This document shows, in pieces, positions 44,893-61,349 of a DNA stretch of 64,000 bases (positions are counted from its first letter, which is position 1; every line of letters starts with the position of its first letter). Position numbers and translations under genes: made by a program. Source of the stretch: Capillimicrobium parvum (GTDB taxonomy: Bacteria > Actinomycetota > Thermoleophilia > Solirubrobacterales > Solirubrobacteraceae); the NCBI RefSeq assembly GCF_021172045.1, contig NZ_CP087164.1, forward strand, positions 1,984,001-2,048,000. The letters are read 5' to 3'. Under the pieces are notes generated by a model. That model was not told the DNA's origin. It searched no databases and was given only the letters and a program-made list of their open reading frames with translations.

Positions 44893-44965
44893 GCCGCTAT
44901 CGTCTAGGGGACTAGGACGCCGCCCTCTCACGGCGGAAACCGGGGTTCGAATCCCCGTAGCGGTA
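44893..44965 (+). tRNA. tRNA-Glu (anticodon CTC), integration target
   Basis: A 73-base tRNA. Acceptor GCCGCTA (44893-44899) pairs with TAGCGGT (44958-44964) with the G-U closing pair usual for actinobacterial tRNA-Glu, then discriminator A. The anticodon loop CTCTCAC on the stem CCGCC/GGCGG gives CTC. The T-arm reads CGGGGTTCGAATCCCCG. Its 3' 20 bases are part of the direct repeat found again 12.4 kb downstream, so the gene is the attachment site of the adjoining island and remains intact. Confidence 0.95.
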
Positions 44966-44966
44966 C
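44946..44966. repeat. attL core: tRNA-Glu 3' end
   Basis: TTCGAATCCCCGTAGCGGTA followed by C is identical at 57338-57358. Similarity continues past the core: both copies carry, at nearly the same distance, a hairpin with a 5-base loop ending in TCGGGGGTTT, then GTCGTT and GGGG. This is the expected product of tyrosine-integrase insertion into a tRNA T-arm and acceptor stem. Confidence 0.88.
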
Positions 44967-45376
44967 TTCAGAAGCCTCCGATTCCATCGGGGGTTTCGTC
45001 GTTCAAGGGGCATCGCGCGACAATCGGCGCGACAACGATGCGCCGCTGCAACTGGTCCACGCGGAACGGCGCGCTTGATGGGCGCCACGATCCCGGTGCC
45101 GGGCCAGCCTTTGCGAAGCGTTCGTTGTGTGCCAGTGGCATCCGGAGTAGCCGTCCTGCGGATCGTCTGACGTTGCGATCGCCGGTTGGCTACGACAAGG
45201 CGAGAGCTGTGCAACTCACCCGGCGGCTCGCGCGGCGGTCCGGCGGGCGGCGCGTTGGCTGGCCGCGGGCGGCAGACCGGATCACCGCGGCCGTGCGGCG
45301 CCCGTTTGAGCGGGGGGCGGGCATCGACGATTCCGACTTGCACCGCTGCCACGGTGCACCTACGGTCGATCGCGTG
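44967..45376. other. left end of element A, no gene seen
   Basis: After the attL hairpin this stretch contains the arm-like repeats GCGCGACAA at 45015-45023 and 45027-45035. The rest shows mixed codon periodicity and no reading frame I can support on either strand. Confidence 0.6.
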
Positions 45377-45688
45377 GTGTCTTCCCAGGGTCGTAGCCGG
45401 CAGCAGCGCAGAGCGGATCGCGAGGCGGTTCGCGCCTACCACGAGGCGCAGCTCGAGCTGCTGCTCGAGCGCGTGCGCGAGGGGTTCGCCCGCTATGACG
45501 AGGGCGCGATCGACGCGTTCGGGCTCGACGATCTCATCCACCGCTACAAGCGCGCCACGCAGAAGCTGTGGAGCGCCTGCGTGGGCGGCGGCTCACAGGT
45601 AGAGAGCATGGCGCGCATGCTCGAGTGGCAGCGGGTGGAGGGGGAGGAGACCGATTGGTGGGAGCTCGTCGCCCGGCGCGATCGCTGA
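45377..45688 (+). CDS. hypothetical protein at the left end of element A
   Basis: A 103-residue charged, helical protein beginning SSQGRSRQQRRADREAVRAY, then QLELLLERVREGFARYDEGA and a Trp-containing C-terminus (VEGEETDWWELVARRDR). The many Arg/Glu heptad-like runs suggest a coiled coil. GTG at 45377 (or 45374) gives a protein that begins at the charged region. Codon use agrees with a real gene. I do not know the family; the position near att suggests a mobile-element accessory protein. Confidence 0.6.
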   Translation: MSSQGRSRQQRRADREAVRAYHEAQLELLLERVREGFARYDEGAIDAFGLDDLIHRYKRATQKLWSACVGGGSQVESMARMLEWQRVEGEETDWWELVARRDR

Positions 45689-45759
45689 CCACCGGGGCGA
45701 TCGCGCCGCCGCGGTTATCGGCGTCGCGCGTTACGGGTGGTCGCGCTCGCTGGGTCGGA

Positions 45760-45781
45760 GTTCTGGCACCGTTCTGGCACC
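45760..45781. repeat. tandem 11-bp repeat GTTCTGGCACC
   Basis: Two perfect abutting copies of GTTCTGGCACC (45760-45770, 45771-45781) lie in the otherwise empty 45689-46065 stretch, for which I see no supportable gene. The form resembles arm-type integrase sites of other actinobacterial elements, which often contain TGGCACC repeats. They may be leftovers of an older element end. Confidence 0.55.
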
Positions 45782-46047
45782 ACGTTGGCGCTGCGCCCGT
45801 GTGCCGCCAGGACGAGGACGCTCGAGGAGCCAGAAAGCCCGATGTCGTCGAGAGCTCGCCCGATCTCAATGGAGGTCGAACGGCTGGATCTTCTGCATGG
45901 CAAGAAGGCCGCTCATGCGACGCGTCCCGGCGGAAAAGCCTGCAAATGAGCGGGACAGCGAAGCGAGACGGTCTTCACGTGCCGGTGTTAGCCGGTGCCG
46001 ATTTCTGGAGTTTGCTGCCAGATTCGGGTGTGAGCACCGACCCGAGG

Positions 46048-46061
46048 TGTACAGTCGTACA
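46048..46061. promoter_or_regulatory. TetR operator 1, TGTAC-N4-GTACA
   Basis: TGTAC-AGTC-GTACA ends 4 bases before the ATG of the tetR gene, covering its ribosome-site region. The same half-sites with the same 4-base spacer recur before hyuA. Autorepression is the natural reading. Confidence 0.75.
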
Positions 46062-46065
46062 GCTC

Positions 46066-46623
46066 ATGTCGGCGCGTCGCTCCGGTCCTCAGCTCGATCC
46101 AGATCGCCGGCGCCGGCTGCTCGAGGCGACGCTGCGCGTGGTCGCCGAGCGGGGCGTCGAGGGTGTCACACATCGTGCGGTCGCCAAGGCGGCCGGGGTG
46201 CCGCTGGGCTCGACGACGTACTACTTCGAGAGCAAGGACGACCTGCTGGCCGGGGCGATTGAGCTGGCGCGCGAGCGCAACTTCGCGACGCAGCGCAGGA
46301 CGTTCGCGCGCATGATCGAGGAGGGCGCGGACCTGCCGCGCGCGCTGGCGACCTGGGTCGAGGAGCAGGCGGGCGGTCTGAGATCGCAGCTCGTGCTCGA
46401 CTACCGGCTCTATCTCGCCGCGCTGAACCGTCCGGCGCTTCGCGGGGAGAGTGCGCGCTGGCTCGAGGGCATCACGGACCTCATCCGTGAGCACACCGAC
46501 GCCGAGACGGCTCGCGTGCTCGGATATTTGCTGGACGGGATCCTCATCCAGGCCGTCATGCACGACACGATCGTGCTGGCGGCCGACGTGGAGCCGGTCT
46601 TTCGCCGGCTCATCACCTCCTGA
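46066..46623 (+). CDS. TetR-family regulator of the catabolic island operon
   Basis: A 185-residue TetR protein. The HTH (about residues 14-60) reads GVEGVTHRAVAKAAGVPLGS followed by TTYYFESKDDLLAGAIELA, where the TTYYF turn is common in one TetR branch. The ligand domain is short. Identical 14-bp palindromes precede this gene and hyuA, so it probably represses both and is released by the island's substrate. A GC hairpin directly after the stop separates it from hyuA. Confidence 0.9.
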   Translation: MSARRSGPQLDPDRRRRLLEATLRVVAERGVEGVTHRAVAKAAGVPLGSTTYYFESKDDLLAGAIELARERNFATQRRTFARMIEEGADLPRALATWVEEQAGGLRSQLVLDYRLYLAALNRPALRGESARWLEGITDLIREHTDAETARVLGYLLDGILIQAVMHDTIVLAADVEPVFRRLITS

Positions 46624-46625
46624 AG

Positions 46626-46641
46626 GGCCGCGTCCGCGGCC
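46626..46641 (+). terminator. hairpin after tetR
   Basis: GGCCGCG (46626-46632), TC, CGCGGCC (46635-46641): a perfect GC stem 2 bases after the tetR stop. Confidence 0.5.
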
Positions 46642-46665
46642 TCGGACCGTCCGATATGCGGTCGA

Positions 46666-46709
46666 TTGACCTCGCAAGTCGAAGCGTGACATGATGTACA
46701 TATGTACAT
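46666..46709 (+). promoter_or_regulatory. hyuA promoter with TetR operator 2
   Basis: A -35 box TTGACC (46666-46671) and -10-like CATGAT (46690-46695, spacer 18) are overlapped by the 16-bp palindrome ATGTACATATGTACAT (46694-46709), whose core is TGTAC-ATAT-GTACA. Wider symmetry (TGACATG before, CATGTCA after) extends it. A repressor here would block polymerase directly. Confidence 0.72.
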
Positions 46710-46763
46710 GTCAACCGCAGCGGCGAGGCGGCGAAGCGAGTGCCGTCCGCGGCAGAGCACTCC

Positions 46764-48833
46764 ATGAGCTGGACCATCGGGGTCGACATCGGCGGCACGT
46801 TCACCGACATCGTGGTCGTCGGCGATCGCGGTGAGCAGGTCCAGTGGAAGCAGGACAGCACGCCTCACCGATTGAGCGAGGCGATCGAGCTCGGCCTTGA
46901 GGCCGTCGCCGGCGAGCTCGGCGTCTCGCTGCGTGAGTTGCTCACCGGAACCACGTCGTTCGTCCACGGGTCGACCGTGGCCACGAACACGCTGATCGAG
47001 CGCAACGGCCCCCGCGTCGGACTGGTCTGCACCGCCGGCTTCCGCGATGCCCTGTACTTCCGCGACGGGTTCAAGCCCGATCGCTTCAACCTGGCGCTTC
47101 CGCGGCCCGACGACTTCGTGCCTCGGTATCTGCGCCTCGGCGTGCGCGAGCGGGTGCTGGCCGACGGATCGATCGAGCTGCCGCTCGACGAGAACAGCGT
47201 GGCGGAGGTGGCGCGGACGTTCGCGCACCACGGCGTCGAGAGCGTCGCGGTGGCGCTGCTGTGGTCGCACGTCGACCCGGCACACGAGCGACGTGTGCGC
47301 GAGGTTCTGGCCGAGCGGCTGCCCGGGATCCCGGTGATGCTCTCGTCGGAGATCCTGCCGGAGATCGGGGAGTGGACCCGCACGTCGGCGACGGTGCTGT
47401 CGGCGTACGCGTATCCGCGCACCGCGACGTACCTGGAGGAGCTCGCGTCGTGGCTCGCGGCGAACGGCCTGGACGGCTCGTTGCAGGTCATGCAGATCAA
47501 CGGCGGCTGCGCCGAGGTCGCGCAGGCGCTGCGCGTCCCGGTGAACCTGGTGCACTCGGGCCCCGCCGCCGCGCCCGCCGCGTCGCGCCACATCGCCGCG
47601 CGAGCCGGGCTCGCGAACGCGCTGACGATCGACATGGGCGGCACGTCGTTCGAGGCGGGGATCATGCGCGACGGTGAGATCTCGCTGTCGCGCAGCGAGA
47701 TGATCGCGTTCCAGCCGCTCGGGGTCGCCGGCGTGGAGATCCGCTCGATCGGGGCGGGCGGCGGCTCGATCGCCTGGGTCGACGACGGTGGTGCCTTGCG
47801 GGTCGGGCCGCAGTCGGCCGGGGCGTCGCCGGGACCGGCCGCCTACGACCAGGGCGGCGAAAGCCCGACGGTCACCGACGCCAACATCGTCCTCGGCTAC
47901 CTCTCGACCGACGCGTTCCTCGGCGGCCGGCGGCGCCTGCGTGGCGACCTCGCGCGGGCCGCGATCGAGACGCACGTCGCCAGGCCGCTCGGCCTGGGCG
48001 ATCCCGTCGTGGCGGCCGCGGGCGTCATCCGCGTGGTCGAGGAGAACATGGTGTCGGCGATCCGCGCCGTCACCGTCGAGCGCGGCATCGACCCGAGGAG
48101 CTTCGCCCTGATCTCCGGCGGCGGCGCCGGCTCGCTGCATGCGGCCCGGCTCGCGGCGGCGCTGGACATCCCGCGCGTCGTGATCCCCGCGCAGGCCGGG
48201 ACGCTTTCGGCGTTCGGGATGACCGTGACCGACATGCGCCACGACCACACCGCTGCGCTCTTCGCCACCACGCGCGATCTCGACACGACCGCGGTCGGCG
48301 CGGTCCTCACGGACCTCGAGGAGCGGGCGCTGCAGGATCTGCGAGCCAGTGGGTTCGCGGACGAGGACGTCCGGTTGGAGCGCACGGTCGACGCCCGGTA
48401 TGCGGGCCAGATTCACGAGCTCATCACGCCCGTGCCCGCCGGGCAGTTCGACGACGAGGCAGTGCGGGAGCTCGCCGAGAGCTTCCACGGCATGCATCGC
48501 GAGCGCTTCACGTACGCACTGGAGGCTGCGCCGATCGAGCTGCTGCACTGGCGGGTGAGCGGCATCGGCCGGCGCGCGCAGGGCGAGGCGGCTCCGCTGG
48601 CGATGACCGGCGGCGGGGACCCTGCCCCGGCCTCACGCGGAACCCGGCGGGCGTACCTGCTCGAGCAAGGCGAGTTCGCCGACGTTCCGGTCTACGCCAG
48701 CGAGGCGCTGGCGCCCGGGGCCGAGGTCGCCGGACCCGCGATCCTCGACGGCGCCACCACGACCATCCTCGTGCCCGCGGGCCACCGCCTCGTCGGAGAC
48801 GGCGTCCAGACGTACGTGATGGAACGCGTCTGA
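46764..48833 (+). CDS. hyuA: hydantoinase/oxoprolinase subunit A (HyuA)
   Basis: A 689-residue ATP-binding subunit. The acetate-kinase/actin-fold phosphate loop IGVDIGGTFTDIVVVG opens the protein, with TTSFVHGSTVATNTLIERNG, the central SGPAAAPAASRHIAARAG and AIRAVTVERGIDPRSFALIS as family blocks. With HyuB it hydrolyses cyclic amides (5-oxoproline, N-methylhydantoin, lactams) at the cost of ATP. ATG at 46764 matches family starts; GTG at 46740 would add 8 residues. It is the first gene of the operon; the next start overlaps its stop (TGATG). Confidence 0.92.
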   Translation: MSWTIGVDIGGTFTDIVVVGDRGEQVQWKQDSTPHRLSEAIELGLEAVAGELGVSLRELLTGTTSFVHGSTVATNTLIERNGPRVGLVCTAGFRDALYFRDGFKPDRFNLALPRPDDFVPRYLRLGVRERVLADGSIELPLDENSVAEVARTFAHHGVESVAVALLWSHVDPAHERRVREVLAERLPGIPVMLSSEILPEIGEWTRTSATVLSAYAYPRTATYLEELASWLAANGLDGSLQVMQINGGCAEVAQALRVPVNLVHSGPAAAPAASRHIAARAGLANALTIDMGGTSFEAGIMRDGEISLSRSEMIAFQPLGVAGVEIRSIGAGGGSIAWVDDGGALRVGPQSAGASPGPAAYDQGGESPTVTDANIVLGYLSTDAFLGGRRRLRGDLARAAIETHVARPLGLGDPVVAAAGVIRVVEENMVSAIRAVTVERGIDPRSFALISGGGAGSLHAARLAAALDIPRVVIPAQAGTLSAFGMTVTDMRHDHTAALFATTRDLDTTAVGAVLTDLEERALQDLRASGFADEDVRLERTVDARYAGQIHELITPVPAGQFDDEAVRELAESFHGMHRERFTYALEAAPIELLHWRVSGIGRRAQGEAAPLAMTGGGDPAPASRGTRRAYLLEQGEFADVPVYASEALAPGAEVAGPAILDGATTTILVPAGHRLVGDGVQTYVMERV

Positions 48834-50248
48834 TGTCGCCGGCCGTCCGGACACCGCCCGACGTCTCACACTGGATGGCTCGGATCGACGCCGCGGAGCC
48901 GATCCGCCGGCGCCCGGCGTTGACGGGCGTCGTGCATGCGGATGTCTGCATCGTCGGCGCCGGCTACACCGGGCTGTGGGCGGCGTACGCGCTCAAGCAG
49001 GCGGCGCCTGATCTCGACGTCGTGATCGTCGAGGCCGAGTTCGCCGGCTATGGCGCGTCCGGTCGCAACGGGGGAGCGGCGGTCGCGCAGGTCAGCGGAT
49101 CGCGCGAGTACTGGGCGCGGATCGGCGGTCGCGAGGGCGTCGTCGCCTTCGAACGCGCGCTGCGAGACGCGGTCGCCGAGATGGGGGCGGCGATCGCGCG
49201 CGAGGGGATCGACTGCGGGTTCGTCGAGCACGGCAGCCTGCACGTCGCGCGCACCACGCTGGAGCTCGCGCGCCAGCGCGCGGCGGTCGAGGCGGACCGC
49301 GCGTGGGGCGTCGGGCCCGAGCACACGCTTCTGCTCGACGCCGGCGAGGTGCGCGACCGGTTGGTCGTCGCCGGCGCCCTGGGGGCTCGGCTGAACCGGC
49401 GCTGCGCCACTCTCGATCCGGGGCGGCTGGTCCGCGGGCTCGCGGCGGCCGCCGAGCGTTCAGGGGCGAGGATCTTCGAGGGCTCGCGGGTCCGCACGAT
49501 CGCGCCCGGCCGGGCCGCCACAGACGGGGGCGAGGTCCGGGCTCGGTTCGTCCTGCAGGCGACCGACGCCTACTCCGGAGGCCTCGCTCACAGCCGCCGA
49601 ACGATCGTGCCGGTGCATACGTCGATGCTCGTGACCGAGCCGCTGAGCACGGAGCTGTGGGCGGAGCTGGGCTGGCAGGGCCGGGAGTCCGTCGCCTGCG
49701 AGCACCCGTTCGTCCACCTCCAGCGCACGACTGACGGGCGCATCACGATCGGCGGCGACGACAACCGGATCCCGTACCGGTTCGGGTCGCGACCACCGCG
49801 CGACGCGGCGGCGACCGATCGGGTGCGCCGCACCTACCACGAGGAGCTCCTGCGCGCCTTCCCGCAACTGCAGGGCGTGCGCGTCGAGCGCTCCTGGCAG
49901 GGCATCTTCGGCGCGTCGCGCGATTGGGCACCGAGCGTGTGGCTGGATCGCGCGACGGGCCTCGGGTGGGCCGGCGGATACGTCGGCGAGGGGGTCGCCG
50001 CGTCGAATCTCGCTGGTCGAACGCTGTCGGACCTGGTGCTCGACCGGCGCACAGACCTCGTCAGCCTGCCCTGGGTGCGGCCGTTCCCGCGGCGGCGGTG
50101 GGAGCCCGAGCCGCTGCGGACGATCGGCGCGGCCGGGATCTGGGCGATGCGGGCCATCGGCGAGCGGGCCGAGGGCCGCAGCGGCCGTCCGTCGCGGCTC
50201 GTCGAGGTGGGCAACCGGATCGCCGGCTTCACGGGCAACGCCGGCTGA
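48833..50248 (+). CDS. DAO-type FAD-dependent amino-acid/amine oxidoreductase
   Basis: A 471-residue flavoprotein. The FAD motif CIVGAGYTGLWAAYAL is near residue 40, with GYGASGRNGGAAVAQVSGSR as in the PuuB/OrdL gamma-glutamylputrescine oxidase group, and a C-terminal FAD segment GLGWAGGYVGEGVAASNLAG. Family members oxidise C-N bonds of amines or N-alkyl amino acids. Lying between hyuA and hyuB, it is suited to oxidise the amino acid released by ring opening. The last 60 residues, rich in Arg, are outside the fold. Confidence 0.87.
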   Translation: MSPAVRTPPDVSHWMARIDAAEPIRRRPALTGVVHADVCIVGAGYTGLWAAYALKQAAPDLDVVIVEAEFAGYGASGRNGGAAVAQVSGSREYWARIGGREGVVAFERALRDAVAEMGAAIAREGIDCGFVEHGSLHVARTTLELARQRAAVEADRAWGVGPEHTLLLDAGEVRDRLVVAGALGARLNRRCATLDPGRLVRGLAAAAERSGARIFEGSRVRTIAPGRAATDGGEVRARFVLQATDAYSGGLAHSRRTIVPVHTSMLVTEPLSTELWAELGWQGRESVACEHPFVHLQRTTDGRITIGGDDNRIPYRFGSRPPRDAAATDRVRRTYHEELLRAFPQLQGVRVERSWQGIFGASRDWAPSVWLDRATGLGWAGGYVGEGVAASNLAGRTLSDLVLDRRTDLVSLPWVRPFPRRRWEPEPLRTIGAAGIWAMRAIGERAEGRSGRPSRLVEVGNRIAGFTGNAG

Positions 50249-50269
50249 AACGCAGATGGGAGAAACGCC

Positions 50270-51112
50270 ATGACCACCATGCCATCGGACGCGCCGCCTC
50301 AGTGGGCGCACTACACCGAGCCCGCCTTCGCCGACGTCCACGGGTTGCGCACGGCCTACCGGCGGTCGGGCGCTGGACCGGCCGTCGTGTACCTGCACGG
50401 AACCGTGCCGACGCGGGTCTGGCTGCCGCTCTGCGAGCACCTGGCACAGGCCCACGACGTGGTCGCGCCGGAGCACCCGGGCTTCGGCGACACGCCGCTG
50501 CCCGCGGCGATCGAAGGCTTCGAGGACCTCGTCCTGCATTACGACGCGTTCTTCGACACCCTGGGCCTTTGGGACATCCATCTCGTCGGCCACGATCTCG
50601 GCGGCTGGATCGCCGCGAACCTGGCGATCTTCTACCCCCGTCGCTTCGCGAGTCTGACGCTGATCACGCCGTCCGGGCTCAACACGCGCGCCCGCCTGGA
50701 TGTGCCCGGCACCGATCCGTTCCGGCTGACCGCGCGGGAGCGGGCTGACGCGCTGCTCAACGGGCGCGCCGACCGGTACAGCGAGTTCTTCACGCAGGAG
50801 GGCTTTCCCGAGGACGTGGTGCGCTCCTACGAGGAGGCGACGACGCTGGCGCTGCTGGCCTGGCATCCACGCTACGACCGGCGGCTCGACGACCGTCTGG
50901 CCCGGGTGGCGGCTCCGACGCTCGTGCTGGGCGCGGAGGACGACCGGCTGGTCTCCGGAGCCGTCGCGGAGCGCTACGCCGAGCTCATCCCCGGTGCCCG
51001 CCACGTGACCGTTCGCGGTGCCCACGGCGAGGAGAGCAGCCACCTGCTGCCGCTCGAGCACCCGAGGGAGGTGGCGGAGCTCGCCGCCGAGCACGTCGCC
51101 CGCAACGCCTGA
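50270..51112 (+). CDS. alpha/beta hydrolase with Asp nucleophile
   Basis: A 280-residue hydrolase. The oxyanion region VVYLHGTVP is near residue 41. The nucleophile elbow reads LVGHDLGGWIA with Asp109 instead of Ser, as in epoxide hydrolases and haloalkane dehalogenases. Acid and His candidates are in VLGAEDDRLVSG and GAHGEESSHLL. It should open an epoxide, cleave a C-halogen bond or act through an aspartyl ester. It is the third gene of the island operon, 21 bases after the oxidase. Confidence 0.83.
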   Translation: MTTMPSDAPPQWAHYTEPAFADVHGLRTAYRRSGAGPAVVYLHGTVPTRVWLPLCEHLAQAHDVVAPEHPGFGDTPLPAAIEGFEDLVLHYDAFFDTLGLWDIHLVGHDLGGWIAANLAIFYPRRFASLTLITPSGLNTRARLDVPGTDPFRLTARERADALLNGRADRYSEFFTQEGFPEDVVRSYEEATTLALLAWHPRYDRRLDDRLARVAAPTLVLGAEDDRLVSGAVAERYAELIPGARHVTVRGAHGEESSHLLPLEHPREVAELAAEHVARNA

Positions 51113-51139
51113 CGCCACGCCGAGCACGAGAGACGACCC

Positions 51140-52480
51140 ATGCACGACATCGAGTTCCACGTCATCATCGACGGCGCCTACCCGCGGGTCCCGTACGCCG
51201 GGAACCGCAAGTCGAACTACGTCGACCTGCCCAACACCCTCTACGACCGCGCGCACGGTCAGCGGGTGCTCGAGGACCAGCTCGAGACGATCGTCGCGCT
51301 GGAGGGGCTCGGCTACGACGGCGCGGTGTTCAGCGAGCAGCACAACGGGCCGATCGGCCTGCACGGCAACTCGTTGGTCGCGGCGTCGTGGGCGGCTGCG
51401 CGCACCACGCGGCTACGGATCGGAGCGTGGGGGCCGATCCTCAACTCGTACACGACGCCGGTCAAGATGGCCGAGGAGATCGCGGTCGTCGACACCCTGT
51501 CGCGCGGACGCCTCAGCATCGCGCTGCCGATGGGCCACGGCATGCAGCACCACTCGCTCGGCTACATGAACCCGGCGACGGTGCGGCGCCGGTTCCGCGA
51601 GGGCCACGATCTGCTGATCAAGGCGATGACCGAGCCGGGCCCGTTCGAGTGGAACGGGGAGTTCTTCCAGATCCCGTACGTGAACGTCTGGCCCCAGCCG
51701 CTGCAGGAGCCGCATCCGCCGATCATCCTGCCCGGTGGCGGCTCGCAGGAGACGCTGGAGCTCGCGGCGCGTAACCGCTACACGTACCTGCCGGTCCTCA
51801 ACCCGCGCCAGGGCTTCCTGCGCAACGTGCAGCGGTTCCGCGATTTGTGCGAGAACGAGGGGTACGAGCTGCAGCCCAGCCAGGTGGCGGCCTCGATCTA
51901 CGTGCACGTGGCCGAGACCGACCGGCAGGCGCGCCTCGAGGCCGAGGCCCACGACCTGTGGGCGTTTCAGAACTTCTATCTCTCGGCCGAGCACGACAAC
52001 TTCCCGCCCGGCTACGTCTCGCCACAGTCGCTGCGCGGCATTCTGTCGGGCGGCTACCGGTCGACCCCGATGAATGAGCTCGGCTGGGACGAGCTCGCAG
52101 CCGAGCACTGGGCGGTCGCCGGCTCGCCCGAGACCGTCGCGTCGTTCCTGCGCGAGTCGCTGGAGGAGGCGGGCGCGGGCAAGCTGCTGGTGTTCGCCAA
52201 CTCCGGCGTCAAGCCGCGCTGGCTGGCGATGAAGAGCCTGACGCTGTTCGCCGAGGAGGTCATCCCGCGGCTGCGCCAGGGCGGCACGCCGCGATGGAAG
52301 ACCGAGCCGCACCGTGGCTACGACACGCTCGCCGAGTTCGGGGCGCGGCGGCCGGACGACGTGCCGCGCGCGGCGGTCCGGCTCGACGGCGAGCATCTCG
52401 TCGACGCCCAGACGGCGCATATCGAGGAGTTGCGCCGGCCCCTGTCCGACCATCCCTCGTCCACGGGAGTGCACGCATGA
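51140..52480 (+). CDS. LLM-class flavin-dependent monooxygenase
   Basis: A 446-residue bacterial-luciferase-like TIM-barrel. Features are GYDGAVFSEQHNGPIGLHGN near residue 58, TTRLRIGAWGPILNSYTTPV, VVDTLSRGRLSIALPMGHGM and the flavin-phosphate region PPIILPGGGSQETLELAARN. Such enzymes use reduced flavin from a partner reductase and oxygen to oxidise a C-H, C-C or C-N position. The C-terminal 60 residues exceed the usual length. The hyuB ATG overlaps its stop. Confidence 0.9.
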   Translation: MHDIEFHVIIDGAYPRVPYAGNRKSNYVDLPNTLYDRAHGQRVLEDQLETIVALEGLGYDGAVFSEQHNGPIGLHGNSLVAASWAAARTTRLRIGAWGPILNSYTTPVKMAEEIAVVDTLSRGRLSIALPMGHGMQHHSLGYMNPATVRRRFREGHDLLIKAMTEPGPFEWNGEFFQIPYVNVWPQPLQEPHPPIILPGGGSQETLELAARNRYTYLPVLNPRQGFLRNVQRFRDLCENEGYELQPSQVAASIYVHVAETDRQARLEAEAHDLWAFQNFYLSAEHDNFPPGYVSPQSLRGILSGGYRSTPMNELGWDELAAEHWAVAGSPETVASFLRESLEEAGAGKLLVFANSGVKPRWLAMKSLTLFAEEVIPRLRQGGTPRWKTEPHRGYDTLAEFGARRPDDVPRAAVRLDGEHLVDAQTAHIEELRRPLSDHPSSTGVHA

Positions 52481-54357
52481 CCACGTCGGCGACCGACCCG
52501 ATCACCTTCAGCGTGATCCTCAACCGCCTCAACTCGATCGCGACCGAGATGACGCTGGCGCTCGAGCACGCGGCGATGACCCCCATCCTGGCGCTGTGCC
52601 GTGACTACTCCTGCTGCATCTACGACCGCGAGGCCCGTCAGGTCGCCATGGTCGACGCGCTACCGGTCCACACGAGCTCGATGCACCTGATCATCGAGGA
52701 GATCACCCGCGTCTTCGGCGATGACCTCGGGGAGGGCGATGTCATCGCCTGTAACCACGCGTACTCGTACAACACCCACGTCGGCGATCTCGTGACGGTG
52801 TGCCCGGTGTTCCACGAGGGTCGCCACATGTTCTGGGCCGCGTCGAAGGGCCATCAGCTCGACGTCGGCGCCGCCGTTCCGGCGAGCGTGCACGAGTGGG
52901 CGCCCGACATCTGGTCGGAGGGCCTGCAGCTGCCGCCGATCAAGCTCTATCACCGCGGCGAGCCGCGGCGTGACGTAATCAACATGTACCTGACGAACGT
53001 CCGCTATCGCGACCTCCTCGAAGGCGACCTGATGGCGCAGCTCGGTTCGATCTGGACCGGCGAGCGGCGGCTCAAGGAGCTTTGCGACGAGTTCGGTTCC
53101 GACACCGTCGAGCACTATTCGCACGCCGCGCTCGACTATGCCGAGAAACGCACCCGCGCGGCGATCCGCGAGATGCCCAACGGCGTCTACGAGGCCGAAG
53201 GCTGGATGGACACCGACGGGCTCGACGCGCACGACGTGCATGTCAAGGTCCGCGTGACGATCGAGGACGAGTCGGTCCACGTCGACTTCAGCGGCAGCGC
53301 CCCGCAGGTGCCGACCGGGCACAACTGCTCCTACGCCGTCGCGCAGGCGGTCGGCATCGCCGGGGTGGTGACCGCGATCGATCCGGACATCCCGCACAAC
53401 GAGGGCTGCCTGCGCTGCGTGACCGTCTACGCGCCGGAGGGGACGGTGTGCAACGCTTCCTATCCGGCCTCGACCGCCTCGGCGACGACCCAGCCGGCCG
53501 ATGCGATGCACGACGCGGTGTGCAAGGCGCTCGCGCAGGCGATCCCGGGCCAGACTCGGGCGGGTTGCAGCCACTGGTCAAATGTGCCGAACCTTGCCGG
53601 CACGCGGCCCGGCAGCGGCGAGCCGTGGGGGCACCTCTGCCTCAACGGCGGGGGCGGCGGGCCGGCGGCCAATGGCGCCGACGGCTGGCCGCTGGTCATC
53701 ACGAACGCGGCGCTGGGCGGCCTGAAGACCGCGTCGGTCGAGGACACCGAGCAGCTGTACCCGGTGCGGATCGGCCGCTGGGAGGTCGCGACCGACTCGG
53801 CCGGCCTCGGCCGCTGGATCGGCGGCCCCGGCATCGAGCTGGAGATGTGGCCGACCCACACGCCGATCGAGTGGATCCACACGAACGACTCGCTCGTCAA
53901 CCCGCCCCACGGCGTGCTCGGCGCGACCCCGGGCCGCGGCGGCGGCCACTACCTCACCGCCGACGACGGAGAGCGCCGCCACTTCCTGCCGCGGGCCGTC
54001 CACGTCGCGATGCAGCCCGGCCAGCGCTGGACGGGCGTCTCGACCGGCGGCGGCGGATACGGCGACCCGCTCGACCGTCCCCTCGAGCAGGTCCGCGCGG
54101 ACGTCCGCGACGGGGTCGTCTCCCGGGAGCGCGCGCGCGAGGTCTACGGGCTCATGGTCGACGAAGCGCTCGATCCGCAGATCGACGAGCAGGCCACGGC
54201 GGCCGCGCGCACAGAGATCCGGGCGGCCCGGTCGGGTGAGCCCTTGCCGACGGTCACGCCGACCCACCCGTCGGCCAGCACCTGGCAGCGCGACGAGATA
54301 CGGCCCCAGGACACCGTGATCGCACGCGCGCTGGGTGCGGCGCGCATCGATGCGTGA
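52477..54357 (+). CDS. hyuB: hydantoinase/oxoprolinase subunit B (HyuB)
   Basis: A 626-residue partner of HyuA. Typical blocks are ITFSVILNRLNSIATEMTLA at the start, DVIACNHAYSYNTHVGDLVT, VHVDFSGSAPQVPTGHNCSY and the late Gly-rich GVSTGGGGYGDPLDRPLEQV. It carries the amidohydrolase site acting on the phosphorylated ring. The separation of hyuA and hyuB by three other genes is unusual, since the subunits are normally adjacent or fused. The ATG overlaps the LLM gene stop (ATGA). Confidence 0.92.
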   Translation: MTTSATDPITFSVILNRLNSIATEMTLALEHAAMTPILALCRDYSCCIYDREARQVAMVDALPVHTSSMHLIIEEITRVFGDDLGEGDVIACNHAYSYNTHVGDLVTVCPVFHEGRHMFWAASKGHQLDVGAAVPASVHEWAPDIWSEGLQLPPIKLYHRGEPRRDVINMYLTNVRYRDLLEGDLMAQLGSIWTGERRLKELCDEFGSDTVEHYSHAALDYAEKRTRAAIREMPNGVYEAEGWMDTDGLDAHDVHVKVRVTIEDESVHVDFSGSAPQVPTGHNCSYAVAQAVGIAGVVTAIDPDIPHNEGCLRCVTVYAPEGTVCNASYPASTASATTQPADAMHDAVCKALAQAIPGQTRAGCSHWSNVPNLAGTRPGSGEPWGHLCLNGGGGGPAANGADGWPLVITNAALGGLKTASVEDTEQLYPVRIGRWEVATDSAGLGRWIGGPGIELEMWPTHTPIEWIHTNDSLVNPPHGVLGATPGRGGGHYLTADDGERRHFLPRAVHVAMQPGQRWTGVSTGGGGYGDPLDRPLEQVRADVRDGVVSRERAREVYGLMVDEALDPQIDEQATAAARTEIRAARSGEPLPTVTPTHPSASTWQRDEIRPQDTVIARALGAARIDA

Positions 54358-55095
54358 TGCGATCGCTGCCACCGACGTGTCGGTCGTCGGCGTCGGGACG
54401 ATGGGCTCCGCCGTCGTTCGCGTGCTGCTCGACGCCGGACGGCGGGCCACGGTGTGGAACCGGACACCGAGCGCGTCGCGCCGAGCGTGGAGCTCGGAGC
54501 GCAGCAGGCGCCGACCGCGGCCGAAGCCATCGCCGCCAGCCCGGTCACGGTGCTGCTGCCGATCGACTACGAACGCGGTGCGCAAGACCCTCGGGCCGTC
54601 GGACGGCTCGCCGGCCGCAGGCCGGACGCTGGTCAACTTCGTCACCGGCGGCACGGACGACGCCCGCGCGATCGCGGCATGGGCGAACGCCGCCGGCGCC
54701 CCGTACCTCGACGGCGCCATCCTCGGCTACCCGCGCGACGTGGGCGCTTCGGAGACGGTCGTCCTGTACGGCGCAGCCGAGACAGCGTTCCGCGAGCAGA
54801 AGGCGTCGCTCGCGCCGATCGCCGGCAGCCACCGGTTCATCGGCGACCGGCCGGAAGGCCCGAACCTCGTCTCCGCCGCGCTGTTCATGCAGCACTTCGC
54901 GTCGCTCAGCGGGCTGTTCGAGGCCGGGACGCTGGCGGCGCAGCCCGGCTTGTCGATGCGCGAGTTCACCGACATGGTCAACGAGCTGATGGTCCCGCTC
55001 TTTCAGGAGGGCAGCGCCGACGTCGCCCGTCGCCTCGAGGATGGCGACTTCCGCGGCGACCAGGCGTCCATCGACGTCTACGTCGCCGGTGTCGG
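54350..55095 (+). pseudogene. 6-phosphogluconate-dehydrogenase-like/imine-reductase gene, frameshifted and 3'-truncated
   Basis: It begins MRDAIAATDVSVVGVGTMGS, an NADPH-binding GxGxMG motif, up to TVWNRTP. Then the sense moves to another frame (ERVAPSVELGAQQAPTAAEA, ASPVTVLLPIDY) and returns at AVRKTLGPSDGSPAAGRTLV. This corresponds to a one-base loss near 54468 and a one-base gain near 54573. The helical domain (EFTDMVNELMVPLFQEGSAD) breaks off after DQASIDVYVAG near 55090, short of the family length. It overlaps hyuB by 8 bases, so it was once the last gene of the operon. Confidence 0.75.
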
Positions 55096-55107
55096 AGATG
55101 GATCGCG

Positions 55108-55215
55108 ATGCTGCGCGGCATTGGACTTCGAATCATCCGTCGGGGCAAGCTCAGGCTCGTTCCCGTGCCGGAACTCGAGCGTTGGGCCGCGGCTGCGGCC
55201 GAGCGCGTGCTCTGA
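55108..55215 (+). pseudogene. excisionase (HTH_17-like) C-terminal fragment
   Basis: A 35-residue tail MLRGIGLRIIRRGKLRLVPV followed by PELERWAAAAAERVL matches the end of small winged-HTH excisionases (typically RGELRAVRIGRR...LVPVAELERWL). It lies 100 bases before the integrase, the usual xis position. The N-terminal half of the HTH is missing; the dehydrogenase fragment takes its place. It is likely inactive unless expressed as part of a fusion. Confidence 0.5.
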
Positions 55216-55315
55216 CCATGATGTCGGGACACCGCCGTAGAGTGGGCGCCCAACAACGAGGTGCCCCCGCGCTGCGCGAACAGCCGGGGGCGTGGCCCAC
55301 GGAGGAATCAGCTCC

Positions 55316-56509
55316 ATGAGCAGTAAGAAGGCTACGCCCGCCGAAGGCGTGGCGACCCGTCACTCCAAGCAGTGCCGCTCCGGAAGCGGCGGCCGGTGCA
55401 ACTGCTCGCCGACCTACCAGGCCAACGTCTGGGACAACCGCGCGCGTAAGCGCATCCGCAAGTCGTTCACGACGCTGAGTGCTGCGAAGCAGTGGAGGCG
55501 CGACGCATCGACGGCGCTCGAGCGCGGCGGCGCGGACCTCCATGCGGACCCGTCGAGCAGGACCCTTGCGGAGGCCGCCGATGAGTTCATCGCCGGTGCG
55601 CGGAGCGGGGCGGTGCGGTCTCGCAGCGGAACGAGCTACCGGCCGAGCACGGTCCGCGGCTACGAGCGCTGCCTCCGGCTGCGTGTCAAGCCAGCGCTGG
55701 GTCACCTACGGATCGGCGAGGTGCGCCGGCGGGATCTCCAGCGTTTCGTGGACGATCTGCTCGCCGAGGAGATGGACCCGGCGACCGTCGTCAAGACGAT
55801 CAACCCTGTCCAGGCGATCTTTCGGCGCTTGGCGCAGCGCGAAGAGATCCGCATGAACCCGGCCGCCGATCTCGAGCTTCCGAAGGGTCGGCGTCGGCGA
55901 GAGCGCATCGCCTCGCCGGCCGAGGCGGCCGCCCTGATCGCTGCGCTGGACTTGCCCGAGCGGGCCCTGTTCGCCACGGCGATGTACGCCGGTCTACGGC
56001 GTGGGGAGCTGCGCGCGTTGCGCGTCTCGGACATCGACCTGGCCGCCGGGCTCATTCGGGTCGCACGGACGTGGGACGACGGCGAAGGTGAGCAGGAAGG
56101 CGGCAAGTCGGAGGCCGCGCGGCGTCGCGTGCCGATCGCGGCCGTTCTTCGCTGGCCTCTCGGCGAGCACCTCGTCGCCAGTAGGCGGACCGGTGATGAC
56201 CTCGCGTTCGGCATGACGGCGCGCGAGCCGTTCTATCCGTCGACCGTACGCAATCGCGCTCTGGCCGCGTGGGCACGGTTCAACGCCGCAGCCGCAGACG
56301 ACCAGCGTCTCGATCCGATCACGCTCCACGAAGCTCGGCACACGTACGCCTCGCTCATGATCGCCGCGGGGGTGAATGCGAAGGCCCTTCAGAGCTACAT
56401 GGGCCACTCGAGCATCACCGTCACGTTCGACCTCTACGGGCACCTCATGCCCGGCAACGAGGAAGAGGCCGCGGGTCTGCTCGATGCGTTCCTGCGACGC
56501 GCCGCCTGA
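55316..56509 (+). CDS. tyrosine recombinase/integrase of element A
   Basis: A 397-residue phage-type integrase. The N-terminal arm-binding domain is Cys/His-rich (HSKQCRSGSGGRCNCSPTY); the core-binding SAM-like domain spans about 80-180 and the catalytic domain 195-390. The catalytic Arg is in YAGLRRGELRAL near 228, HxxR in LHEARHTYAS near 338, the second His in GHSSITVTF and the Tyr nucleophile in FDLYGHLMPG near 374. GGAGGAA precedes the ATG. It should recombine the 21-bp tRNA-Glu core. Confidence 0.93.
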   Translation: MSSKKATPAEGVATRHSKQCRSGSGGRCNCSPTYQANVWDNRARKRIRKSFTTLSAAKQWRRDASTALERGGADLHADPSSRTLAEAADEFIAGARSGAVRSRSGTSYRPSTVRGYERCLRLRVKPALGHLRIGEVRRRDLQRFVDDLLAEEMDPATVVKTINPVQAIFRRLAQREEIRMNPAADLELPKGRRRRERIASPAEAAALIAALDLPERALFATAMYAGLRRGELRALRVSDIDLAAGLIRVARTWDDGEGEQEGGKSEAARRRVPIAAVLRWPLGEHLVASRRTGDDLAFGMTAREPFYPSTVRNRALAAWARFNAAAADDQRLDPITLHEARHTYASLMIAAGVNAKALQSYMGHSSITVTFDLYGHLMPGNEEEAAGLLDAFLRRAA

Positions 56510-56592
56510 CGGCTGGCCTCAATCCAGCGGGAGTTGCTGCCAGCCGTCAACGGCTTCAAAAGCGCGATTTTGCAGGGATCCTCCCTGCTACC

Positions 56593-56970
56593 GTGGCCGC
56601 CGCCGTGGCCACCCAGAATCGCTTCCTCGTCGAGACGCTCGCTGAGCCACGGACGCTGTATCGCGGCGCTCGTGATGCGCATCAGCCGGTGGAGGCATGC
56701 AGGTCCAACTACGAGCTCGGACGCAAGCCGCATCCCGCAGATCTTCGGGCTCACGTGCTCGCGGTAGCCATCTCCATGTTCGAGGACGGCGGCTTCGTGG
56801 CGCAGATGTGCCGGCGGCACCGTACGCGTATCGGCGGCCACGTCGTTCGGTTCGATCTGCAGCCCGGAATGGGCATTTGTCTCGCGGACACCGGCGGTCC
56901 AGGGCACTGGTCGATCTGGGGACATCCGGATGCGTTGTCGGCGTGCATCGTTTCGATCACGCCCGCATAG
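56593..56970 (+). CDS. hypothetical protein downstream of the integrase
   Basis: Up to 125 residues, starting at GTG 56593 or 56605. It contains VETLAEPRTLYRGARDAHQP, HVLAVAISMFEDGGFVAQMC and GMGICLADTGGPGHWSIWGH. It looks globular with strands near the end. I do not recognise it. It lies between the integrase and the attachment site, where small accessory genes of islands are common. Confidence 0.5.
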   Translation: MAAAVATQNRFLVETLAEPRTLYRGARDAHQPVEACRSNYELGRKPHPADLRAHVLAVAISMFEDGGFVAQMCRRHRTRIGGHVVRFDLQPGMGICLADTGGPGHWSIWGHPDALSACIVSITPA

Positions 56971-57014
56971 AGCTCGTCGCGGTGGGTAGCAGCCCCGTTA
57001 CCATCGTCAGGGCT

Positions 57015-57206
57015 ATGACGTACTCGATCTTCGACACCGGCAACCTGGTCGTGTCCTTCGATCGCGAGGACGAGGCCATCGATGCGCTGAGGCGACTGGC
57101 TGAGGATCATGAGGCTGCCGACGGACTGCTGATGATCGCGTTCGACGACGCGGGCAACGCCGTCGGCGAGGCCGCGCCCGGCGAGGCCGCCGTCCACTCC
57201 GTCTGA
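57015..57206 (+). CDS. small hypothetical protein at the right end of element A
   Basis: A 63-residue acidic protein (FDTGNLVVSFDREDEAIDAL, then AADGLLMIAFDDAGNAVGEA). The alternating pattern suggests a small alpha/beta fold. Codon use fits a gene. No family is recognised. Confidence 0.55.
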   Translation: MTYSIFDTGNLVVSFDREDEAIDALRRLAEDHEAADGLLMIAFDDAGNAVGEAAPGEAAVHSV

Positions 57207-57222
57207 CGCGGCCGCGACCTCC

Positions 57223-57242
57223 GCGCGACAATCGCGCGACAA
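57223..57242. repeat. arm-type repeats GCGCGACAA near attR
   Basis: GCGCGACAA occurs at 57223-57231 and 57234-57242, and in the same orientation just inside attL at 45015-45023 and 45027-45035. Paired short repeats inside both ends of an element are the usual layout of integrase arm sites. Confidence 0.65.
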
Positions 57243-57337
57243 CGAGCCTGCTTTTCCGGCGGTCAGGAGCGGTCGAGAGCGGCGCAACATTGCGACGGGA
57301 GAGCCAAATCTCAGTTCCCATCGTCCCAGGGACACCA

Positions 57338-57358
57338 TTCGAATCCCCGTAGCGGTAC
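57338..57358. repeat. attR core: copy of the tRNA-Glu 3' end
   Basis: An exact 21-bp copy of 44946-44966, not attached to any tRNA body; the preceding sequence does not form a tRNA. It marks the right end of element A and probably the left end of element B. Confidence 0.88.
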
Positions 57359-57670: not shown

Positions 57671-58306
57671 CTAGGGCTGCTCGTCCAGATCCCAGCCCGC
57701 GGCGCGCATCGCCTTGATGCGGTCCGAGGGCATGAGCTTGGCCAGGTAGGTGTCGGTCGTCGCGGTCGATGAGTGCCCCAGCTGCCCGGCGATGACATGC
57801 AGCGGAAGCCCGCGCTCGACCATCTCCGTGGCCATCGTGTGGCGCAGCCCGTGCGGATGTACGCGCTTGTCGATGCCCGCAGCCGTGCCGAGTTTCGGCA
57901 GCAGCCGCCGGACGTAGGACGGGTCAAGCGGCTGACCCGCCTGACGTTGTGCCCCTGCGCCGACCGAGCAGAACAACGGCTGACGGCCGTTGAGCCCGAG
58001 CCCGCGGCGGACCTCGGTCCACGCGCGCACGTAGCCGAGCCCCCGTGAGTCGATGACTGCGACGCGATCCTTGCGGCCCTTGCCCTCACGCACGCGCACC
58101 GTGCCCTGTCGCTCGTCCACGTCAGCCGGACGTAGGGCCAGCGCCTCCGAGACTCGCAGGCCAGATCGCCACATGAGCGCGACCAGCGCGCGGTTGCGCA
58201 CGGCGAGTGGTCCGCGTCCCGTGATGGCGTCGATGAGCGCCTGCGCCTCGTCGGGCGTCAGTGGCTCCGCGGGGTACTTGCGTCCGGCGTTCGCTGGGGC
58301 GGGCAT
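57671..58306 (-). CDS. short tyrosine recombinase (XerC-like catalytic domain)
   Basis: A 211-residue recombinase consisting almost entirely of the catalytic domain. Arg is in WRSGLRVSEALAL near residue 51, HxxR in HPHGLRHTMATEM near 150, the second His in GQLGHSSTATTD and Tyr in TDTYLAKLMPS. The N-terminal core-binding (SAM-like) domain is absent; only about 20 residues precede the catalytic fold. ATG at 58306 follows GGAGG; a GTG at 58333 is possible. It faces the att core 300 bases away and has an 11-bp dyad upstream. Confidence 0.88.
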   Translation of the reverse strand: MPAPANAGRKYPAEPLTPDEAQALIDAITGRGPLAVRNRALVALMWRSGLRVSEALALRPADVDERQGTVRVREGKGRKDRVAVIDSRGLGYVRAWTEVRRGLGLNGRQPLFCSVGAGAQRQAGQPLDPSYVRRLLPKLGTAAGIDKRVHPHGLRHTMATEMVERGLPLHVIAGQLGHSSTATTDTYLAKLMPSDRIKAMRAAGWDLDEQP

Positions 58307-58328
58307 CTGGCCTCCGTTCCGTCTACTT

Positions 58329-58354
58329 GTCACGCTTCTGCCTAGAAGCGTGAC
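58329..58354. promoter_or_regulatory. 11-bp dyad upstream of the short recombinase
   Basis: GTCACGCTTCT (58329-58339), spacer GCCT, AGAAGCGTGAC (58344-58354) form a perfect dyad 23 bases before the start. Related half-sites AAAAGCGTGTCA (58395-58406) and AAAGCGTGACA (60426-60436) occur nearby, the latter upstream of another minus-strand gene. This suggests operators of one repressor in element B. Confidence 0.6.
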
Positions 58355-58560
58355 GGCTCAGAGGGTCTGCGTCAACCGAAAGTCACGGCCTCGTAAAAGC
58401 GTGTCAACTGGGACTGGAACTCGGCGCTCCGGGCCGAGTGGCCACGCGCCAAGTTGGATGTCCGCGTGTGGCCGCCGATGTCCTTGCATGTCGTTGCATG
58501 TCCGTCCGCCGCTGCCGGAGGTCAACCGTTGACGGCCCGGACCGGCGCTATCAAGGGGTC

Positions 58561-58758
58561 ATGAACAACCTGAACTGCCCCGACTGCGGGCGAGGCATGA
58601 CGATCCTCACGTCCGCCGAGGGCCACATGACGATGATGGGGCCGCAGGGCCAGGCCAAGATCCCATCGCGACGGTTGGCCGTCGCCAAGTGCAGCTGCGG
58701 AGAGGGCTGGGAGCGCGACTACGGCGACGAAGGACCGTGGCGGCGGATCACCACCTGA
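58561..58758 (+). CDS. small zinc-ribbon-like protein
   Basis: A 65-residue protein with NCPDCGRGMTIL at the start and VAKCSCGEGWERDYG later, a CxxC...CxC set that could hold zinc. The Met-rich middle (HMTMMGPQGQ) is flexible. Its function is unknown; such small proteins are frequent in actinophage-like elements. Confidence 0.65.
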   Translation: MNNLNCPDCGRGMTILTSAEGHMTMMGPQGQAKIPSRRLAVAKCSCGEGWERDYGDEGPWRRITT

Positions 58759-59011
58759 CGACCGACCCGAACTGCGGCGCATCGCTGCGGTCCGAGGGCG
58801 GCATGGCCACCGTCGCGCCCGAGATGGCGTAGTTCATGTTCGGCACGACGTGGATCGCCGCGCCTGCCTGTGGCTTCAGGTCAGTGAGCGTCAGGTGGTC
58901 CTGCGTCGCCATCGCGCCTCCGAGAGGCAACGCGACGCCCACCACGAGGCAGAACTTCGCGGAGATCGTTGGCCGCACGTACTTGAAGTCGTCAGGAAAC
59001 CGCAGGACCAC
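58748..59011 (-). CDS. hypothetical protein
   Basis: Up to 87 residues, from GTG 59011 or from an internal ATG giving MATQDHLTLTDLKPQAGAAI. The region IHVVPNMNYAISGATVAMPP is strand-like. Third-position GC is high, as in real genes of this genome. No family is recognised; it overlaps the zinc-ribbon gene's end by 11 bases, convergently. Confidence 0.5.
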   Translation of the reverse strand: MVLRFPDDFKYVRPTISAKFCLVVGVALPLGGAMATQDHLTLTDLKPQAGAAIHVVPNMNYAISGATVAMPPSDRSDAPQFGSVVRW

Positions 59012-59066
59012 GCCTGCATCATCGCGGCCAAGACGGACGCGTCAGCGCCGGAAGAGGACGGACCGA

Positions 59067-59366
59067 CTACAGGGCAGCGATGGTGGCGACAGCGGCAACG
59101 ACGGTCGCGAGGGTCGAGATGATGAGCAGCGCGAAACCGAGACGTTCGAACCGCGTCCGGGCGCGGTCCAAGCGCTTGGTGGCTTCCTCCAGGTCAGCGA
59201 CGGCGCTCAGGACAAGAACGGCGAGCGTCATGTCTCCCTGATGCAAGGGGACGCCACCGGGACCAGCTGCGTCGATCTTGCGAACCACCGACTGCGTGTC
59301 CATGTCCATCAACTCGCCGTAGGACTCCACGCCGAGCGCTTCCAGGACGACGTTCGGATAGGGCAT
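59067..59366 (-). CDS. small membrane-anchored hypothetical protein
   Basis: A 99-residue protein. The N-terminal 45 residues are soluble (MPYPNVVLEALGVESYGELM), then a charged helix (LEEATKRLDRARTRFERLG) leads into one C-terminal membrane helix (FALLIISTLATVVAAVATIA). It looks like a tail-anchored protein with a short coiled coil. The function is unknown. Confidence 0.6.
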   Translation of the reverse strand: MPYPNVVLEALGVESYGELMDMDTQSVVRKIDAAGPGGVPLHQGDMTLAVLVLSAVADLEEATKRLDRARTRFERLGFALLIISTLATVVAAVATIAAL

Positions 59367-59425
59367 AGCGCCAGCATCCCCAGCGATCCGGACAGCCCGT
59401 CCGCTCCTACCGGGACGATCCCAGC

Positions 59426-59707
59426 ATGCAAAAGATCGGAACACCCGAGGTCGTCGCGGACCTCGACCAGGTGATGATCGTCCGCTACCCGGTTGACGAC
59501 GCCACCGTTGAAGTCGAGTTGACGGGCTCGCTACTTGCGACCGGCGATCCGGACGGGACGCCATCGGAGATCGTTCGCACCAAGGGCGCGTATGGCCTGC
59601 TCCAGTACCTCCGCATGTACCCGGACGAGCCGCTGCCCCGCCGCATCATCTTCATGACGACCGAGCCGAACACCAGTCCGCCGTTCACCTGGCACGCGGA
59701 GTTCTGA
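59426..59707 (+). CDS. hypothetical protein
   Basis: A 93-residue acidic protein with MIVRYPVDDATVEVELTGSL, GAYGLLQYLRMYPDEPLPRR and IIFMTTEPNTSPPFTWHAEF. It is compact and strand-rich with no signal peptide. No family is recognised. It is divergent from the membrane-anchored protein gene with 59 bases between starts. Confidence 0.6.
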   Translation: MQKIGTPEVVADLDQVMIVRYPVDDATVEVELTGSLLATGDPDGTPSEIVRTKGAYGLLQYLRMYPDEPLPRRIIFMTTEPNTSPPFTWHAEF

Positions 59708-59770
59708 GCAACCCCAGCAACCCCAGCGACCCGGTGGACGCTCGTTCGAGAGGGCGGCTAGGGTCACGGC

Positions 59771-60034
59771 GTGGCAAGGATCGCCCTCCTCTCCATCGTC
59801 GCCGTTGTGCTGGTGTCGGGGTGCGGGTCCTCCGACCAGCCGACTGTCAAGTGTGCTGACGGCACGACCTGCGAGGCGGTCGGGCAGCAGGGCGCGTGTT
59901 CCCACCACGGAGGGCTCGCGACTGGCTGGGGCCAGGGCGAAGGCGGCGGTTGGGGCGAAGGCGAAGGCGGCGGCTGGGGCGAAGGCGAAGGCGGCGGCTG
60001 GGGCGAGGGCAAAGGCGGCGGTCGGGGACCGTAG
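59771..60034 (+). CDS. small lipoprotein with DUF3761-like core and Gly/Trp repeat tail
   Basis: An 87-residue exported protein. The lipobox VLVSGCGSS places the lipidated Cys near residue 18. The core KCADGTTCEAVGQQGACSHHGG matches the DUF3761 pattern (CxDGT...GxCSHHGG). The tail repeats GEGGGWGE about three times; the DNA repeats every 24 bases, so length variation between strains is likely. The function of DUF3761 is unknown. Confidence 0.7.
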   Translation: MARIALLSIVAVVLVSGCGSSDQPTVKCADGTTCEAVGQQGACSHHGGLATGWGQGEGGGWGEGEGGGWGEGEGGGWGEGKGGGRGP

Positions 60035-60091
60035 CGCCCAGCCTTCGGGAGACGACCAGGGGTAGACAGCATCCCCAGCGACCCGACGCGC

Positions 60092-60373
60092 TCAGTCGTC
60101 CGTGCGCTTCTCGCCGTAGACGTACGACCATGCCAACCCGAACAGCGCAGGCGCTCCGAGCGTGACGAGGATGGCGACCGTTGCGGCGTCCCCTCCGCTC
60201 CCGTCCGTGACGATCCGCGATACGCCGATGCCCAGCGCGACCGCTCCTGCGATAGGCACGAACAGCATCGTCAGCATCGAAGCCGCATAGACAACGGAGC
60301 GCGTCACCTGTGCGCGGCCCGTAGTCGCCTGACTGCCTTCGCGCGGCGGGCGATACACGCTGGAGGTCGCCAT
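60092..60373 (-). CDS. small membrane protein
   Basis: A 93-residue protein with about 25 soluble residues (SSVYRPPREGSQATTGRAQ) and then two hydrophobic helices (VYAASMLTMLFVPIAGAVAL and VAILVTLGAPALFGLAWSYV) and a short charged end. The AAAGCGTGACA motif stands about 55 bases upstream. No family is recognised. Confidence 0.65.
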   Translation of the reverse strand: MATSSVYRPPREGSQATTGRAQVTRSVVYAASMLTMLFVPIAGAVALGIGVSRIVTDGSGGDAATVAILVTLGAPALFGLAWSYVYGEKRTDD

Positions 60374-60632
60374 GCAGGGGAGAGTTCCTGCAACCACGGG
60401 AAGAGTACGTAGAGATCCATGCTGGAAAGCGTGACAGAGCCGCAACCGAGGTCAGGTGCAGCCGCTGCACTTCTCCGGCCCGGTGCCGTTGGCGATCTCG
60501 GCGGTGATGGCGTTGCTGGGGATGCCGAACGCTCGACCATGACTTAAGAGTTGGCGTCGCGGGCGTCGCCAACGGCGTCCACAACGTCAGCGGCGGGCGA
60601 CCGGAGATTGTGAGGGGCTGCACAGCCGGTGT

Positions 60633-61199: not shown

Positions 61200-61349
61200 A
61201 CCGCAAGACCAGTCTTAGAAGTCATCATAAGCGGCGTATCGGCAACTCAAGATCCATGCTTTAGCCACGCTTACCTTTCCGCGATGCCGTCCCACAGGCG
61301 GTCGTCGCTCGGAGCCACCAGGGCACGACCAGGGCGCGGAGACGGGCGA

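Follow-up and report, generated by a model that had tools for sequence, protein, structure and literature searches.

What might a genome gain from an operon in which the genes for the two subunits of a putative ring-opening enzyme are held apart by three genes of other families? The question is raised by the window analysed here, a stretch of 64,000 nucleotides from Capillimicrobium parvum, in which an initial annotation had described five genes as a catabolic operon on a mobile island. We consider it reasonably probable that the locus is a 12.4-kb island in tRNA-Glu(CTC), carrying one TetR-repressed catabolic operon for a cyclic-amide or N-heterocyclic substrate; such an island would probably allow this soil actinobacterium to degrade a cyclic nitrogen compound.

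The extent of the island can be read from the following features:

44893-44966, forward strand: tRNA-Glu(CTC), the integration site (ARAGORN)
44946-44966, forward strand: attL, TTCGAATCCCCGTAGCGGTAC, the 3' end of tRNA-Glu and an exact 21-bp repeat of 57338-57358
55096-55215, forward strand: candidate remnant of an excisionase-like gene, uncertain (read by eye, without family match)
55292-56509, forward strand: tyrosine integrase (PF00589, 68 bits; phrog_1 integrase, 1.4e-61)
57338-57358, forward strand: attR, where the tRNA-Glu 3' end recurs (exact 21-bp repeat)

The 21-bp direct repeat has exactly two copies in the 5.95 Mb genome, one at the tRNA-Glu 3' end and one beyond the integrase, which sits just inside the right-hand copy. 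Because these att-type repeats mark both ends, we set the island at 12.4 kb (44946-57358), and, together with the integrase, they uphold the mobility of the operon, which had until then been asserted without proof. Neither family matches nor a phrog search revealed a clear excisionase gene on the island. Two congeneric genomes also have this tRNA-Glu, in surroundings too divergent in sequence for a clean empty-site reading. At the left end of the island, 553 bp within 45359-45916 have an 86% copy elsewhere in the genome (2421757-2422309), near which no integrase was called. To the right of attR, at 57671-62339, lie a second tyrosine recombinase on the minus strand and a primase/helicase-like ATPase, both of which probably belong to another, neighbouring element.

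The catabolic genes between these ends are arranged as follows:

46764-48833, forward strand: HyuA, putative ATP-binding subunit of an ATP-dependent lactamase-type enzyme (689 aa; Hydantoinase_A, 266 bits)
48833-50248, forward strand: DAO-family FAD amine oxidase, PuuB/AmaA-like family (471 aa; PF01266, 187 bits)
50270-51112, forward strand: alpha/beta-hydrolase-fold protein with Asp at the nucleophile elbow, GHDLG (280 aa; Abhydrolase_1, 80 bits)
51140-52480, forward strand: luciferase-like (LLM) flavin monooxygenase (446 aa; PF00296, Bac_luciferase, 143 bits)
52477-54357, forward strand: HyuB, putative metal-binding hydrolytic subunit (626 aa; PF02538, Hydantoinase_B, 501 bits)
54350-~55095, forward strand: imine-reductase-like (IRED) pseudogene (match to PDB 7a3w, 2.5e-33; GC3 frame switch)

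Open reading frames and Pfam scores, all far over cut-off, confirm the coordinates and families first given for the five complete genes; the TetR gene, candidate operators, IRED remnant and att sites are additions to that description. Codon GC3 in all five frames is 0.91-0.95, against 0.95 +/- 0.03 in 34 genes to the left of the island, and they are therefore taken as coding; values are lower in the TetR (0.88) and integrase (0.84) genes. From hyuA through the DAO, hydrolase and LLM genes to hyuB, the intergenic gaps are -1, +21, +27 and -4 nt, a tight packing on one strand; the single operon originally proposed is supported. The order was rightly called unusual: hyuA and hyuB are split by three genes here and adjacent in every pair that we read at other loci, where genes were called with a codon-based caller and many were named from reading the sequence.

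The sixth gene is broken. Its start overlaps hyuB by 8 nt, and it matches residues 9-247 of the imine reductase 7a3w (target length 295). Two frameshifts (-1/+1) that compensate each other lie near 54463 and 54572; between these points the frame GC3 switches (0.94 versus 0.77), and the peptide VAPSVELGAQQAPTAAEAIAASPVTVLLPIDYE is encoded solely in the shifted frame. Some 47 residues are missing at the C-terminus, so that the intact Rossmann and C-terminal dimerisation domains of an imine reductase or reductive aminase are lacking in this frameshifted, truncated protein. Barring assembly errors at the two indels, the gene is thus read as a pseudogene; no indel accounts for the truncation.

How would such an operon be controlled? 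Upstream of hyuA lie four further features:

46048-46061, no strand assigned: putative operator TGTACAGTCGTACA, 4 bp upstream of tetR
46066-46623, forward strand: TetR-family repressor, 185 aa (TetR_N, 43 bits; TetR_C_31, 41 bits)
46666-46695, forward strand: sigma-70-like promoter TTGACC-18-CATGAT (1 found, 0.0 expected in shuffles)
46695-46708, no strand assigned: putative operator TGTACATATGTACA, meeting the -10 at its last base

The palindrome TGTACNNNNGTACA thus precedes both tetR (46048) and hyuA (46695), with none expected from shuffles, and the predicted promoter is the only promoter-like site before hyuA. Across the 5.95 Mb genome the palindrome has three sites, two of them on the island; the third, at 4994919 (L086, 6920-6933), stands directly before an operon that encodes a TetR 39% identical to that of the island (106 bits) and a transporter judged by eye to be of the SMR type. 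Since this third copy adjoins a homologous regulator, the palindrome appears tied to the clade of the island TetR; no copy was found in the region of the TetR homologue of the chromosomal catabolic cluster (L030). TetR would most likely bind TGTACNNNNGTACA both ahead of tetR and across the hyuA promoter, and most likely leave these sites when a substrate or product appears. The exact putative operator motif could serve directly in a biosensor for the inducer, and the function of the widespread LLM/hydrolase pair, discussed below, would thereby become open to testing.

The chemistry of HyuA and HyuB is best approached through the caprolactamase CapAB, the best PDB and NCBIfam match for both subunits. 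The ATP residues of caprolactamase are Asp11 and Asp295, and its metal residues Asp41, His99, Asp102 and His124 (PMC8453981); the former pair is conserved as D8 and D290 in HyuA, and the latter tetrad as D43, H101, D104 and H126 in HyuB. The proposed acid/base Tyr136 of CapB corresponds to Val138 in the ungapped alignment register, in which nearby shifts are possible. Scores against the caprolactamase equivalogs NF050156 and NF050157 (652/1000 and 390/1000 bits) do not reach the curated cut-offs, and none of HyuA, HyuB, DAO or LLM reached the cut-off of an NCBIfam function model. As the CapAB-type residues are kept and the equivalog scores are far too low, 'ATP-dependent cyclic-amide hydrolase' is a justified name and 'caprolactamase' is not; the earlier assignment to an ATP-dependent lactamase type is borne out to this extent by the predicted active sites. 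In trees, HyuA (99/98) and HyuB (90/93) are both placed with the HyuB-HyuA pairs found in two genomes of the family (G090 and G182), and this agreement indicates that the subunits stayed together although their genes are split here. The genome also holds at least about 20 hyuA-like places, many with a hyuB match within ~3 kb.

The LLM and hydrolase genes have a history of their own. As a pair, with either gene first, both are found again in the same genome, in relatives of the order, in Leucobacter and on two Rhizobiaceae plasmids (Agrobacterium and Rhizobium); the island LLM groups with that of Leucobacter (100/99) and the hydrolase does likewise, more weakly (86/76). Judging by these neighbourhoods, the two are a recurrent pair moving together. 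A conserved protein of ~95 aa accompanies pairs at six of the loci read, and its copy in the chromosomal cluster (L029) has no Pfam match. Baeyer-Villiger activity is known from LLMs (PMC12239570) and would explain the hydrolase partner. The hydrolase itself had been labelled an epoxide-hydrolase-like Asp-hydrolase. An Asp is indeed present at the elbow (Asp109), and the catalytic His and acid are conserved across the homologues compared; the label is nonetheless unsafe, as the nucleophile position is occupied by Ala, Ala, Gly, Ala and Thr in the nearest homologues and by Ser in the rest, and with a position so variable a mechanism through an Asp nucleophile cannot be taken for granted. For the LLM, the AlphaFold model is weak (pLDDT 53). 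LLM-based pathways exist for trigonelline (TgnAB) and pyridine (PyrA), and a literature search returned no testable link between them and the island LLM.

Where, then, does the DAO belong? Both of its best NCBIfam models (TIGR03329 and AmaA) score under cut-off. Its three closest relatives, at 56-59% identity, lie <10 kb from an LLM/hydrolase pair and not beside hyuAB, which suggests that the DAO tracks with LLM/hydrolase rather than with HyuAB. The relatives at 46-47% (L071-L073) have no such pair within 10 kb, nor does a 53% copy in the same genome within the 16 kb read.

A chromosomal cluster at 3.785-3.86 Mb brings the substrate class closer. It holds paralogues of the DAO, LLM, hydrolase and TetR, along with two NicX-like genes (the one tested matches the 2,5-dihydroxypyridine dioxygenase 7cn3 at 6e-85), a NicD-like deformylase (7e-48 to 4l0c), isochorismatase-type hydrolases and a LigM/DesA-like demethylase. 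Several LLM/hydrolase pairs lie in the same supercluster, as do genes of the P450, HpaB and Rieske types. Because these paralogues cluster with pyridine-ring enzymes, we take the substrate to be an N-heterocycle; by family association the cluster points to N-heteroaromatic chemistry, for paralogues elsewhere in the genome and not for the operon itself.

Is the same gene set carried elsewhere? The DNA of the whole operon found no second carrier in 201 genomes of the order, and LLM, HyuA and DAO, at strict cut-offs, were recovered from 396 genomes of the phylum in this genome only. A pattern-limited search of GTDB contigs with the LLM returned three Leucobacter loci only, with no hyuAB in the stretches covered (one contig being 4.3 kb), and LLM, DAO, HyuA and IRED had no match above 60% identity among 72,556 plasmids. 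The neighbourhood check suggested for the five-family set thus uncovered no other carrier in these searches: the types of part are known, and their combination on a tRNA island has no precedent in the collections searched.

From these features we infer which reactions take place, in what order and on what class of substrate. Under TetR, the operon would supply HyuA, DAO, alpha/beta-hydrolase, LLM and HyuB, together with a dead IRED gene. The LLM would most likely add oxygen to a ring or ketone, and its hydrolase partner hydrolyse or rearrange the unstable product; HyuAB would most likely use ATP to open a cyclic amide, whether lactam, imide or pyridone-derived ring, and the amine thereby freed would be oxidised by the DAO. 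No flavin reductase, transporter or aldehyde dehydrogenase was found on the island; a flavin reductase and a dehydrogenase would be supplied from elsewhere in the genome. In its fullest form, which we put forward as a possible but doubtful scheme, this would be an undescribed, transferable pathway on a TetR-controlled mobile operon, in which the LLM and a hydrolase that has no fixed nucleophile convert an N-heterocycle oxidatively into a cyclic amide or imide, HyuAB uses ATP to open this ring, and the product is deaminated or dealkylated by the DAO.

Considering the presence of HyuAB beside an amine oxidase, it was natural to draw an analogy with NmpABC, in which HyuAB would open an N-alkyl lactam akin to N-methylpyrrolidone, the DAO would oxidise the resulting N-methylamino acid, and the LLM and hydrolase would be accessory. 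Some points speak for that analogy: nmpABC combines HyuAB with a DAO-type amine or amino acid oxidase, the residues of HyuAB are compatible with a lactamase, and the closest HyuBA pair (G090) adjoins an N,N-dimethylformamidase-like gene (PF20254). It does not extend further. The nmpABCDEF cluster carries a succinate-semialdehyde dehydrogenase (PMC12866759), for which no open reading frame exists between 46066 and 55215; hyuA and hyuB are not adjacent; and a DAO that tracks with LLM/hydrolase argues against a simple NmpABC reading, which we regard as unlikely. A hydantoin or creatinine-type route, with HyuAB as an N-methylhydantoinase and a sarcosine oxidase-like DAO, seems highly unlikely, although HyuA and HyuB are clearly related to the N-methylhydantoinase 7hk5 (4e-113 and 8e-71) and a related HyuBA pair (G182) adjoins creatinase-like and M20-carbamoylase-like genes (by eye). 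Both subunits are nearer to caprolactamase (480 and 353 bits for HyuA and HyuB) than to N-methylhydantoinase (383 and 242 bits), the operon has no carbamoylase or deiminase, and the LLM and hydrolase would be left unexplained.

Perhaps the operon does nothing at all, having arrived as a fragment of captured cargo that is now decaying. The broken IRED means that function may be on its way to being lost: this last gene is truncated and bears two indels, and the island provides neither transporter nor flavin reductase nor dehydrogenase. Such decay is nevertheless quite unlikely, as the five frames are intact with strong coding GC3, the active-site residues are kept, the regulator and putative operators are intact, and the IRED indels could be assembly errors. 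This leaves a probable catabolic operon for a cyclic amide or N-heterocycle, and the systems against which it can be set.

Compared by gene content, the nmpABCDEF clusters of Alicycliphilus BQ1 and Paracoccus ZQW-1 (PMC12866759) likewise combine, within a single polycistronic unit, hydantoinase A/B and an FAD amine or amino acid oxidase, whereas the island operon lacks their dehydrogenase, splits the subunit genes and has an LLM, hydrolase, IRED and TetR in addition. CapAB of Pseudomonas jessenii GO3 (PDB 6YRA; PMC8453981) resembles HyuAB in having alpha and beta as separate subunits, in the size of each, in the ATP residues and in the metal tetrad; it differs in the Tyr136 that is Val by position here, in the curated cut-offs that HyuAB does not attain, and in its partners, an omega-aminotransferase and 6-oxohexanoate dehydrogenase in place of DAO, LLM and hydrolase. 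The N-methylhydantoinase 7HK5 belongs to the same HyuA/HyuB superfamily, but is one fused chain of 1288 aa and more distant than CapAB, while the island subunits are separate. Lastly, the LLM/hydrolase pairs of the Agrobacterium CFBP6625 plasmid, Leucobacter celer and the chromosome itself (3.79-3.85 Mb) have a homologous LLM (47-57%) with the hydrolase adjoining, as here, yet the DNA read around them (for the plasmid and Leucobacter, ~10 to 12 kb either side) has no hyuAB, whereas the island carries both. If functional, the island would therefore be a compact, self-regulated and horizontally mobile N-heterocycle or lactam route, joining two normally separate enzyme systems.
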